The notes under the pieces are model-generated. The model saw only the letters and a program-made list of their open reading frames with translations, did not search any database and was not told the DNA's origin. DNA of 19,176 nt, taken from positions 1 to 19,176 of the forward strand of contig JAQVPO010000001.1 in the NCBI GenBank assembly GCA_028702015.1. The letters are read 5' to 3'. Position 1 is the stretch's first letter. Every line of letters begins with the position of its first letter. Made by a program: the position numbers and the translations under genes. The DNA is from Synergistaceae bacterium (lineage in GTDB: Bacteria > Synergistota > Synergistia > Synergistales > Synergistaceae). This document shows positions 1,707 to 5,017 of the stretch, one piece after another.

Positions 1707-1829
1707 GGAGAGGAAGGAATAATTCAATTTTTAAATTCTTTATTGAAATACGCCACATCACCTATGACAGCCAAGATATTTAAATATAAAATGAAAAAAC
1801 ATAAAATCTGTAAACGGGAGAGATTTATC

Positions 1830-2333
1830 ATGAAAAAGACTTTGTTCAGTTTTCTCGCTGCCGCATTGATAATATTCAGCCTTGCACAGACCTCATCTGC
1901 TTTAGAACTGGGATCGCCCGCAAGCGATTTTGAACTTGCCGATATCAGTGGAAAGAAGGTAAAACTCAGCGATTATAAAGGAAAGACGGTAGTGCTGAAT
2001 TTCTGGGCTACATGGTGTCCGCCATGCAGAAAAGAGATGCCGGACTTTGACCTTCTCAACAAAGAACTGAGCAAAACGGGTGATGCAGTACTGCTTGCTG
2101 TCAACATGACAGACGGCAAGAGAGAGACTAAAAGTAAAGTTGAGTCCTTCCTCATGGAGAACAAATACAGTATGAGAGTGCTTCTCGATACAGAGGGAAA
2201 AGCAGCAAAGGCTTATGATATAAAATGGCTGCCGACGACCGTTGTTGTTGACCGTAAGGGTATTCTTCACTGGCAGACGTTTGGCGAGACTACAAAAGAG
2301 ACGGTTATGAAGGCGGTAGAGGAAATAAAATAA
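1830..2333 (+). CDS. TlpA/ResA-like membrane-exported thioredoxin
   Basis: 167 residues. A signal peptide or anchor (MKKT then a hydrophobic stretch to about residue 20, with a possible cut after SSA at 24) precedes a thioredoxin fold of the AhpC-TSA/redoxin type. The active site is WCPPC (C63, C66) in the context FWATWCPPCRKEMP, and the cis-proline region is WLPTTVVVD. This is typical of TlpA/ResA proteins that keep extracytoplasmic cysteines reduced, for example for cytochrome c maturation or repair of exported proteins. ATG 1830 follows GGGAGAG with suitable spacing, and the longer in-frame start at 1743 has no such site. The stop TAA abuts the ATG of ccdA with no gap, so the two are co-translated, and the partner supplies its electrons. 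Confidence 0.88.
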   Translation: MKKTLFSFLAAALIIFSLAQTSSALELGSPASDFELADISGKKVKLSDYKGKTVVLNFWATWCPPCRKEMPDFDLLNKELSKTGDAVLLAVNMTDGKRETKSKVESFLMENKYSMRVLLDTEGKAAKAYDIKWLPTTVVVDRKGILHWQTFGETTKETVMKAVEEIK

Positions 2334-3008
2334 ATGCAGACTGATCTCCCCCTCCTCTTCCTAGAAGGCTTTCTGGCCTTTATATCTCCGTGCATGCTTC
2401 CGATGCTGCCTGTATATCTTATGTACCTGGCTGCTGAAACTGAGCATGGAAAGAAAGCAAGCATTGTCAACACGGTAGGTTTTGTTTGCGGGTTCACCTT
2501 GGTCTTTATGGCTTTGGGAGCCACTGCAACTGCTATAGGCGCTCTTATGAATGATCATAGGATGTTGCTTCAGAGGCTGAGCGGAGTAATAATTTTAATA
2601 TTCGGGCTGCATTTCCTTGGTATATTCAATATAGGTTTTCTGGATGTTGAAAAAAAGATAGACCTTGGTCTGCAGAAACGCGGCGGATTTATAGGAGCAT
2701 TGCTTTTCGGAGCCGCATTTTCTCTTGGATGGTCTCCATGCCTCGGCCCATTCCTTGGCTCTGCTCTTATGCTTGCGGGCAGCGGCAAAACTGTTTTACA
2801 GGGAGTATTTTATCTTTTCGTGTTTTCAATGGGATTAGGAGTGCCTTATATCCTTGCAGCAGTCTTTTTTACCAATATAAAGGGCGTGTTCCAATGGCTC
2901 AGGAAGCATGGCAGGCAGATCAAGGTAATATCAGGGCTGGTACTTGTTTTTGCAGGGTTTATGATGATCTTTGACCTGTTCGGATATTGGGCCGGATTAT
3001 TTTTGTAA
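2334..3008 (+). CDS. ccdA: CcdA/DsbD-type transmembrane thiol-electron transporter
   Basis: 224 residues with six predicted membrane segments. The two functional cysteines sit in the family contexts FISPCMLPMLPVY (C20) and LGWSPCLGPFLGSAL (C136), each within a membrane segment, and both prolines of each motif are present. The protein passes reducing equivalents from cytosolic thioredoxin across the inner membrane to an exported thioredoxin, here the TlpA-like protein encoded immediately before it. The ATG directly follows that gene's stop (TAAATG), and a purine-rich GAGG inside the tlpA end serves as ribosome binding site. A strong hairpin terminator follows at 3029-3069. The length is normal for stand-alone CcdA. 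Confidence 0.9.
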   Translation: MQTDLPLLFLEGFLAFISPCMLPMLPVYLMYLAAETEHGKKASIVNTVGFVCGFTLVFMALGATATAIGALMNDHRMLLQRLSGVIILIFGLHFLGIFNIGFLDVEKKIDLGLQKRGGFIGALLFGAAFSLGWSPCLGPFLGSALMLAGSGKTVLQGVFYLFVFSMGLGVPYILAAVFFTNIKGVFQWLRKHGRQIKVISGLVLVFAGFMMIFDLFGYWAGLFL

Positions 3009-3069: not shown

Positions 3070-3104
3070 ATATTTATTAAAATGGTCTTTACTGGCGAAG
3101 ATCC

Positions 3105-3665
3105 CTAACAGTCGCCTGATGCTTTGGAGCAGCCTCTACCGAGTATTATCAGGCTTATCCCGCTGAAAACAAGATTGATCCCTAAAATGATCCCTATAAC
3201 TGCTGCGCCTGTGAAGAGGTTCTTCCACATCATCACTGAAAGGATTACGCCCAAAAGTCCTGAAACGAGGATCCAGACAGAACCGTTAATTTCCCTTATC
3301 CTGAAGTATTCAACAACTTTTGTTACTCCGTCTGCCATGAAATAGGCTGCGAGAATGATGCTCAGGGTCATTACTCCTGCGACCGGATGGATCAGAAAAA
3401 TAAAACCTGCTGCCATTGCTGCGACGGCCATGATCGTCTCCTGCCAAGGCCTGCCTCCGTCACGGAATCCCCTGAAGGAGCTCCATCCCTGGGCAAAAGC
3501 AACTGCTATCAAAAGCATCCCGACTATTGTTTCCACTGCGAATGATGCCAGCATTGGCATTGAGAGAGATATAAATCCGAGAAAAAGCATAAGCCCTCCG
3601 ATAAGATAAAATCGTTTCTTGTTTTTTTTAAGATCCTCTTTGGAAAATTTTCCGGTAAAAAGCAT
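3105..3665 (-). CDS. HdeD-like (DUF308) membrane protein
   Basis: 186 residues with about six hydrophobic segments arranged as three hairpin pairs, as in the HdeD/DUF308 family. An N-terminal basic stretch (KEDLKKNKKR) precedes the first segment. Landmarks are GLMLFLGFISLSMP, a typical first segment, and MADGVTKVVEYFRIRE between the middle segments. HdeD of enterobacteria is tied to acid resistance, but for most homologues the biochemical role is unknown. Two cysteines lie at the very C-terminus (GRGCSKASGDC). ATG 3665 has GGAGGG 6 nt upstream. That ribosome binding site sits in the 14-nt gap after the candidate selenoprotein ORF (stop at 3680), so the two are probably one transcript. Confidence 0.82.
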   Translation of the reverse strand: MLFTGKFSKEDLKKNKKRFYLIGGLMLFLGFISLSMPMLASFAVETIVGMLLIAVAFAQGWSSFRGFRDGGRPWQETIMAVAAMAAGFIFLIHPVAGVMTLSIILAAYFMADGVTKVVEYFRIREINGSVWILVSGLLGVILSVMMWKNLFTGAAVIGIILGINLVFSGISLIILGRGCSKASGDC

Positions 3666-3679
3666 TTGTATCCCTCCGC

Positions 3680-3814
3680 TTATTTATTATCTTCAGAATT
3701 TTTGAAAAATCCTCTTAATTTGGACACTATCCATGAAAAAGACGCGGCAACTGCCACGATCGGGAGAAGGAGTATTCAGGGAGGACATCCTCCGCGGCGT
3801 TTTTTAAAAATCAA
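3680..3814 (-). CDS. Candidate small membrane selenoprotein, in-frame TGA = Sec13 (CPPU motif)
   Basis: I see a 44-codon frame on the reverse strand. A TTG start (3814-3812) has GGAGG (3827-3823) 8 nt upstream, and TAA is at 3682-3680. Codon 13 is TGA (3778-3776). Before it come a basic N-terminus and a redox-like motif (KKRRGGCPP). After it come a hydrophobic stretch of about 17 residues (ILLLPIVAV onward), then SKLRGFFKNSEDNK. If TGA is read as selenocysteine the motif is CPPU, a CxxU analogue of CxxC. A hairpin meeting bacterial SECIS rules lies right after the TGA (see 3741-3761). The positive-inside rule would put CPPU on the cytosolic face. I do not recognise the family. The alternative is a 12-residue leader peptide followed by a chance open frame; 31 sense codons in a row happen by chance about one time in four, so the openness alone proves little. 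Confidence 0.6.
3741..3761 (-). promoter_or_regulatory. Bacterial SECIS-like hairpin downstream of the in-frame TGA
   Basis: On the reverse-strand RNA, CGUGGC (3758-3753) pairs with GCCGCG (3748-3743) including one U-G pair, with apical loop AGUU (3752-3749). Below it U3759 is bulged, then A3760-U3742 and G3761-C3741 pair. The loop begins 23 nt after the UGA and has G in its second position. Published bacterial SECIS rules ask for a loop 16-37 nt from UGA with a G among its first two bases. The E. coli fdhF element also has a bulged U and a GU in the loop. Here the upper stem is longer (six pairs against three). Confidence 0.55.
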
Positions 3815-3934
3815 TTCCAACACCTCCAGCGAGTTCCTATGTTGACTCTATTCTCGCACATCCCTAATGATAGGGAGTGGGGGGAATTACCGTATTATCT
3901 GTAACAGTTAAATTTTACAGCTGATTCAAATGAG

Positions 3935-5017
3935 TTAAAAGTCAATGAATTCCCCGCTAGGGAAGAGCCGCGCCCTCTCTTCTTTCTTCAGAACTCTTTC
4001 AGCTCCTTTATAAAGTGCTTCAAGTTCATTCTCTCCAGGTATTATGACAATGGGAGCAAGAAATTTTATCTTCTTTAGCAGCATCTCCATAAGGCTGGCC
4101 GAATAAGCCATGCCGCCTGTCAGGATAACTGAGTCTATTTCTCCGTCAAGTACGGTGCAGAGTTCTCCAATACCTTTAGCTATCTGATATACAAAAGCTT
4201 CCAGAACGGTCCGGGCTTCCTGGTTGTTCTCCGCTTTTATAAATACTTCCCTTATATCGCGTGTGCCGAGATATGCAACCAGTCCCCATCCTGAAAGCAA
4301 TTTTTTATTAAGTTCCTCTTTGGTGTACATCCCGCTGAATATAAGATCGACCAGTTCACTGACAGGCAGTCCTCCGGCACGTTCGGCGGAGAAGGGGCCG
4401 TCAGCCTTTGCGCCTACCACATCGACTATCTTCCCGCCGGAGTGTGCTCCTATAGTTATACCTGTCCCGAGGTGTGCCACCACGAATCTGCAGTCTTCAT
4501 AATTTTTTCCCAGGTCATCTGCGACCTTTCTTGCTACAGCTTTCTGATTGAGGGCGTGGACAAGGCTTGACCTTTTTATCTCAGGCGCGCCGGAGACCCT
4601 TGCTACTTCGGTAAGTTCATCCACGGATACAGGATCAACGATATACGCTCCACAGCCAGACATGTCGGCAAATTTTTTTGCGAGGAAAGCTCCAAGATTT
4701 GAGGCATGTTCTCCCCGCGGGGCCTCTCTAAGGTAATCTGTCATATTTGGGGTAACAGCATATGTCCCGCTTGGCATGGGGGCAAGAAGTCCCCCGCGTC
4801 CGACTACCGCATCAAAGCTGTCCGGCTTGATTCCTTTACTGAGGATCGCTTCTTTAATAAGTTCGAATCTATCCTCAAGCTGATCCAGAACACTGCTGTG
4901 ACCTGAGATGATATTCTGGGACGCAGGGATGTTTTCTTTGAGGATCTCATCTCCATATTGGTATACTGCGATCTTTGTTGAAGTTGATCCTGGATTCACA
5001 GCGAGGATTCGGTACAT
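3935..5017 (-). CDS. buk: Butyrate kinase (or branched-chain fatty acid kinase)
   Basis: 360 residues, the usual length for this ASKHA-fold family. It transfers phosphate from butyryl-phosphate (or isobutyryl-/isovaleryl-phosphate) to ADP in the cytosol, giving ATP and free acid. Diagnostic segments are the N-terminal phosphate loop NPGSTSTK (8-15), GRGG (73-76), AHLGTGITIGAHSGGKIVDV (181-200) and DGPFSAERAGGLP (206-218). The C-terminus VILTGGMAYS is the last nucleotide-binding strand. Its ATG lies 1 nt after the stop of ptb, with GGAGGG inside the ptb end, so translation is coupled. The fermentation of amino acids suggested by the neighbours makes branched-chain acids as likely a substrate as butyrate. 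Confidence 0.93.
   Translation of the reverse strand: MYRILAVNPGSTSTKIAVYQYGDEILKENIPASQNIISGHSSVLDQLEDRFELIKEAILSKGIKPDSFDAVVGRGGLLAPMPSGTYAVTPNMTDYLREAPRGEHASNLGAFLAKKFADMSGCGAYIVDPVSVDELTEVARVSGAPEIKRSSLVHALNQKAVARKVADDLGKNYEDCRFVVAHLGTGITIGAHSGGKIVDVVGAKADGPFSAERAGGLPVSELVDLIFSGMYTKEELNKKLLSGWGLVAYLGTRDIREVFIKAENNQEARTVLEAFVYQIAKGIGELCTVLDGEIDSVILTGGMAYSASLMEMLLKKIKFLAPIVIIPGENELEALYKGAERVLKKEERARLFPSGEFIDF

Follow-up and report, generated by a model that had tools for sequence, protein, structure and literature searches.

The mercuric transport protein (PF02411) is a small membrane protein, and several bacterial selenoproteins, namely GrdA (PF04723), the SelW-like (PF10262), AhpD-like and DUF1858 proteins and those with the CC/Se motif (NF041239), carry a Cys three residues before the Sec together with a UGA and a bSECIS hairpin. 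In the passages of a 2026 review that deal with such proteins, CxxU is given as a redox-related motif of known selenoproteins, a putative mercuric transport protein selenoprotein is described with a C/S-x-x-U motif, and the bSECIS is constrained to a loop of 3-9 nt with a G in the first two positions, a stem of 4-16 bp, a distance of 16-37 nt from the UGA and an MFE of ≤ -7.5 (PMC13188914). A further point of comparison is the stress-tolerance island tLST of Enterobacteriaceae, which has hdeD-GI and trxGI; in the passages on these genes, deleting hdeD-GI makes the bacteria less resistant to heat and chlorine, and deleting trxGI leaves a lipid-oxidation assay unchanged (PMC8407380).

The locus described here lies in a window of 19,176 nucleotides (the whole stretch of DNA that was analysed, from contig JAQVPO010000001.1 of a Synergistaceae bacterium) and consists of a very short open reading frame (ORF) with an in-frame TGA. 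Its predicted product resembles the CxxU selenoproteins in having the Cys three residues before the Sec and a UGA accompanied by a bSECIS-type hairpin. However, those proteins are covered by Pfam or NCBIfam models, whereas the present ones have no model, are 34-49 residues long, carry CPPU and have one helix, which starts at the Sec. The C/S-x-x-U motif is shared with the putative mercuric transport selenoprotein (PMC13188914), but the ORF product has one helix only and no profile match, PF02411 giving none at E-values up to 10 in any of 19 members of the group. Searches of Pfam and NCBIfam with the same 19 proteins yielded best E-values of 0.082 and 0.23, respectively, each family being matched in one member only, and the window protein alone matched no model of either collection. 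No entry of the 119-entry selenoprotein table in the review fits when compared by name, domain and motif, lengths not being given there (PMC13188914), and literature searches in an open-access library listed nothing fitting. The original prediction that no known family fits thus held against Pfam, NCBIfam and that table, and the CPPU proteins appear to form a new family of tiny membrane selenoproteins that is unusual in size and in membrane anchoring. The likeness to tLST lies in the neighbouring gene, which is HdeD-like here; tLST differs in its gene set and in belonging to Enterobacteriaceae, and a selenoprotein is not mentioned in the passages on it (PMC8407380).

Layout of the open reading frame

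The ORF and its parts were located in the window as follows.

3823..3827, minus strand: ribosome-binding site GGAGG, 8 nt upstream of the TTG (sequence)
3680..3814, minus strand: ORF of the putative small selenoprotein, 44 codons and TAA, TTG start (sequence reading and homologues)
3776..3787, minus strand: Cys-Pro-Pro-TGA (CPPU motif) with Cys10; the TGA is codon 13, at 3778-3776 (sequence)
3725..3775, minus strand: predicted single membrane helix, residues ~14-30 (hydropathy and AlphaFold2)

The product reads MIFKKRRGGCPPU-ILLLPIVAVAASFSWIVSKLRGFFKNSEDNK and is followed by TAA, with the TTG at 3814-3812 and the TAA at 3682-3680, both on the minus strand. All elements of the layout claimed in the original prediction (GGAGG, a gap of 8 nt, TTG, C10-P-P, TGA at codon 13, a hydrophobic segment followed by a charged tail, and a TAA 14 nt before an hdeD-like ATG) were confirmed on the minus strand; the prediction had been given without a strand, and positions 3680-3814 of the plus strand read differently. 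The TTG is the likely start, since the codon at the matching aligned place is ATG in four homologues (L008, L011, L012 and L014). Mean hydropathy was 2.28 over residues 13-31 (with C in place of U), and the tail after the hydrophobic segment is charged. The AlphaFold2 model, of moderate confidence (mean pLDDT 72.7, pTM 0.31), contains a helix over residues 11-42, which would therefore put Cys10 and Sec13 at the beginning of the helix, behind a basic stretch. Strings of the type C-x-x-TGA are frequent, 35 being present in the window when any frame of both strands is counted, so that the motif alone was given no weight as evidence and conservation was used instead. Rfam gave no match at E-values up to 1 within 3100-4000, and the plasmid search gave a single match with an E-value of 2.

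Homologues and the frame beyond the TGA

The 44-residue frame was used as a tblastn query against 52 genomes of the taxonomic family and was present in 13 of them, comprising all eight of the genus (the window's genome included) and five of other genera. E-values ranged from 2.9e-17 to 7.5e-12 in the seven other genomes of the genus and from 8.5e-11 to 8.7e-8 in the five of other genera, and each match contained exactly one stop, a TGA at the matching codon; the best E-value in the remaining 39 genomes was only 0.048. A profile built from 12 long-form sequences only (A1) was then run on 185 Synergistota genomes and recovered the 13 tblastn genomes together with nine members of a short form absent from the profile (9.2e-8 in G086, 4.3e-5 in G153 and 7.0e-4 to 0.0069 in seven others), these weak E-values being backed by the presence of CPP-TGA and of a hairpin at equal distance. 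With a combined profile of 19 long and short rows (A2; G006, G008, G009 and G091 lay outside it), 23 of the 185 genomes were matched at E-values ≤ 9.0e-13, 19 of these rows being in the profile by construction, and the next match was at 0.00255. These 23 genomes also supplied the rows of a covariance model of 72 columns (R1), so its recovery of them is uninformative; it gave no further strong match, with a gap from 2.8e-11 to 0.0084. Two genomes from the weak zone hold members by sequence: G083, with MKWRKFLASCPPULFLYFFLAVVLGIMYIIRLLKN, and G081 (1.6e-6), G083 having sat in the alignment that found the latter. Members were thus counted in 25 of the 185 genomes, in three families (f1, f4 and f6), all 25 with CPP-TGA, and fall into a long form of 42-49 residues and a short form of 34-39 residues, the latter mostly as single genes. 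Homologues with Cys in place of Sec (CPPC), which the original prediction had proposed to look for, were not found among the matches listed in the 185 genomes. This counts against the Sec reading, although Cys homologues are a usual and not an obligatory companion of bacterial selenoproteins.

One other match with CPP-TGA (G150, C70:45643, 0.0084 with R1) was rejected, as its frame enters an apparent tRNA gene (by eye) and overlaps a G/C-rich hairpin. Weak matches lacking CPP-TGA were judged to be chance, L052, L063 and L064 by sequence and others, including L057, L060, L061, L065 and L066, by their table rows alone.

The break in the frame past the TGA that had been named beforehand as a sign against the prediction was not seen in the relatives; the frame was conserved, and apart from the TGA itself none of the 23 aligned rows had a stop within 24 codons counted from the Cys. 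The +1 frame carried a stop in 12 and the +2 frame in 2 of the 23 rows, and open frames alone are therefore weak evidence. Comparison of seven rows of the genus with the window (two rows being identical) gave a dN of 0.05-0.17 and a dS of 0.51-1.00 after the TGA, and 0.07-0.15 and 0.39-1.32 once the SECIS codons were removed; these rates indicate purifying selection on the part beyond the TGA. Five residues, namely the C, P, P and U and a single helix Ala, do not vary among the 19 A2 proteins. These data bear on the reading of the TGA as a true stop, under which the gene would encode a leader peptide of 12 residues or be in decay. TGA is indeed a normal stop here, ending 3 of the 20 listed ORFs of the window, but same-frame conservation past the TGA, seen in 25 genomes from three families, and a covarying hairpin that exceeds coding needs, make this reading highly improbable.

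The hairpin and the selenocysteine genes

The hairpin was identified by folding and alignment.

3742..3759, minus strand: SECIS-type hairpin with a 6-7 bp stem and a 4-nt loop, AGUU (3752-3749), the loop starting 24 nt after the UGA

In a gap-free alignment of 23 rows (A5), the loops in the shared columns are AGUU, GGUC, AGGU, GGGC or AGGC (4 nt); L062 and L084 have a 6-nt loop at the site, in L007 the hairpin is not the best fold and in L009 it is formed only in part. Pairing was found in 92.2% of cells, with changes on both sides in four of the seven pairs (in some row), and none of 500 shuffles matched the hairpin on any of five measures. When the 3' side was slid, fewer cells paired and the covariation score fell, the +2 slide still giving four double-change pairs. 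Because the hairpin region is coding, a synonymous-codon control was used in which every codon was redrawn with the codon usage of its own locus (22 distinct rows). Observed core pairs numbered 128 of 132 against 100.6 expected (sd 3.2, maximum 113 in 2000 redraws), and the summed energy was -223 against -125.7 (sd 10.5, minimum -152.1 in 200 redraws); the rows are related, and these sums are therefore not independent trials. In single rows the number of pairs was not significant against the redraw (P between 0.065 and 0.56); significance was reached only when the related rows were summed. The original prediction had proposed a bSECIS search, and the covarying SECIS-type hairpin does lie where the bacterial model expects it: 19 of the 23 rows passed the bSECIS constraints in a script with a fixed 4-nt loop, L062 and L084 fit them too by reading (6-nt loop, -12.7), bringing the count to 21 of 23, and L007 and L009 fail on energy. 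G081 and G083 were folded apart and form 7 bp with a 6-nt loop, at -8.0 and -5.6 (short stretch). The window's own hairpin has a z of -2.55. The comparison shows a TGA kept at one codon, a coding frame on both sides of it and a covarying bSECIS-type hairpin after it.

An absence of selA, selB and selC, which had been named beforehand as a second sign against Sec decoding, was not observed in the window's genome, which is 65.5% complete. It contains selA (4.0e-137), an N-terminal fragment of selB beside selA at a contig end (positions 2-166 of 581; 203 bits, where a full-length match needs 242), selD over its cut-off and tRNA-Sec over its cut-off (76.0 bits). The selD gene has its own in-frame TGA in SG-U-AAK (G000:C32:5256-6182, L118), which is a line of evidence of its own for Sec decoding of UGA in this genome. 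Of the 185 genomes, 136 had a selA match (135 over the cut-off), including 24 of the 25 member genomes versus 112 of the 160 others (Fisher p = 0.003, uncorrected for kinship); in G086 the match is a contig-end fragment only, and G090 gave no selA match and has tRNA-Sec (74.6 bits). The tRNA-Sec model gave a weak signal in 184 of the 185 genomes and in all 14 controls, for which reason only matches over the cut-off were counted. Such matches were present in 20 of the first 23 member genomes; in G040, G044 and G091 tRNA-Sec was not over the cut-off and selA was present, and G081 and G083 have both selA and tRNA-Sec. In G071 (C21:24719-25670, L100) the tRNA-Sec gene is followed on the same strand, at a distance of 0.76 kb, by the short-form gene.

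Insertion of another amino acid at the TGA, by a code change or leaky read-through, would leave the frame open just as well, as would any code in which TGA is a residue. Other ORFs of the window end in TGA, however, the Sec genes are present, and the hairpin and C-x-x-U context are typical of Sec, so that this reading is scarcely credible. Decoding of the TGA as Sec, as originally proposed, is supported by the Sec genes, the conservation of the frame and the covarying hairpin. With high confidence, SelB with Sec-tRNA would read the UGA as Sec and so place CPPU beside the single helix, at the interface of the membrane. On the sequence evidence, the ORF very probably encodes a genuine selenoprotein, very small and crossing the membrane once, that is a member of a family.

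Neighbouring genes and possible function

The gene directly downstream of the ORF was assigned with PF03729 (69.6 bits, cut-off 25).

3105..3665, minus strand: gene of an HdeD-like DUF308 membrane protein

Against NF007577 this protein scored 80.4 bits, below the cut-off of 189. Its ATG at 3665 lies 14 nt past the TAA of the ORF, and an HdeD-like gene is directly downstream in all 13 long-form genomes (family f1). Relatives of HdeD with no small gene detected occur in 11 further f1 genomes and in seven of f7, and neither CPPU nor CPPC was seen upstream of them in 17 loci inspected by eye (10 of the 11 f1 genomes, for which the best HdeD-like copy was taken and no such small gene precedes it, and 7 of 7 of f7; the inspection covered neither the second copies in G012, G013, G042 and G045 nor the G032 copy). 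The link is therefore one-way, in that HdeD does not need the small gene. Upstream of the ORF is a gene of the acetate/butyrate-kinase family (3935-5017, PF00871). The window also encodes, at 1743-3008 and convergent with the hdeD gene, a TlpA/ResA-like thioredoxin, which carries WCPPC, and a CcdA-like membrane protein; such a pair is also found near the operon in L032, L097 and L098, and in L096 it sits upstream at a distance of about 4-5 kb.

Between the stop of the ORF and the start of hdeD there are 0 to 21 nt (TAAATG in L008 and L013) and no other gene, an arrangement that would suit a Sec peptide serving mainly as a selenium-sensing leader: with Sec present, ribosomes would pass the UGA, finish the ORF and begin the HdeD-like gene by translational coupling, and with Sec absent they would stop at codon 13. 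Such a role is nevertheless improbable, given that purifying selection acts on the amino-acid sequence itself, that a GGAGG-like site immediately precedes hdeD in the window and in several other loci, and that the short form retains both protein and hairpin with no hdeD behind.

Ten short-form neighbourhoods were compared (L100-L109). By eye, a TATAAT or TACAAT box lies 4-7 nt before the ribosome site in nine of them and a G/C-rich hairpin follows the stop in eight (six with a T run), which suggests, from sequence features, that the short form is a single-gene unit. Just upstream of the start in L101-L108, the -10 box is followed (by eye) by a conserved C-run/AGGGG stretch, which is palindrome-like and a possible operator; it contains the ribosome site, so the short-form mRNA leader would be very short.

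An arsenite methyltransferase (ArsM) gene has its nearest end within ~1.1 kb in six of the ten (L101, L104, L105, L106, L107 and L109; NF008823 with 298.8 bits in L104, cut-off 263), and an ArsR-type regulator is near in five. L106 and L109 also have an ArsP-type permease, and an N gap lies inside the ArsM gene of L109. These neighbours, and the fact that several known selenoproteins in the review's account are arsenic or mercury proteins (PMC13188914), would fit a CPPU pair that serves at the membrane as a ligand for soft metals or metalloids (arsenite, mercury) in place of redox catalysis. However, ArsM was not found in four of the ten stretches (L103 being near a contig end), it is upstream in four loci and downstream in two, a separate -10 box precedes the short gene in nine of ten (by eye), the long-form neighbourhoods listed showed no adjacent arsenic gene, and shared synteny (an RND pump in seven of ten) could account for the closeness of ArsM. 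Metal binding of this kind is rather unlikely, and, because the position of ArsM varies, the ArsM link was kept as no more than a rival.

CPPU may instead, as a tentative assignment, be a membrane-bound selenol/thiol redox pair. The pair would form and release an S-Se bond and be reduced by cellular thiol systems; the long form would serve or protect the adjacent HdeD-like membrane protein, of a stress-protection family, and the short form would act without it. The simplest reading would be that such a pair reduces a partner protein in the membrane or protects it; for an HdeD-like partner, the stress role of hdeD-GI in the passages on it (PMC8407380) is an analogy and not proof. Most likely, to go by its sequence, the peptide is a membrane-anchored CPPU protein of selenol/thiol redox (or soft-metal-binding) function.

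The group is probably a new minimal class of membrane selenoprotein (34-49 residues, CPPU heading one helix, three Synergistota families) that acts within the membrane as a switch based on selenol redox chemistry or on metal, is tied in one lineage to an HdeD-like stress protein and has its SECIS inside the codons of the membrane helix. If so, the selenoproteome would gain a family beyond current family models. Gene callers are expected to miss the gene, given the tiny size of the ORF and its interruption by the UGA, and more micro-selenoproteins may be hidden in anaerobes; the search approach, a profile and a SECIS model run on six-frame genomes, is repeatable elsewhere. The family would also offer a simple system, most members having one Cys, one Sec and one helix, with one neighbour gene in one lineage.
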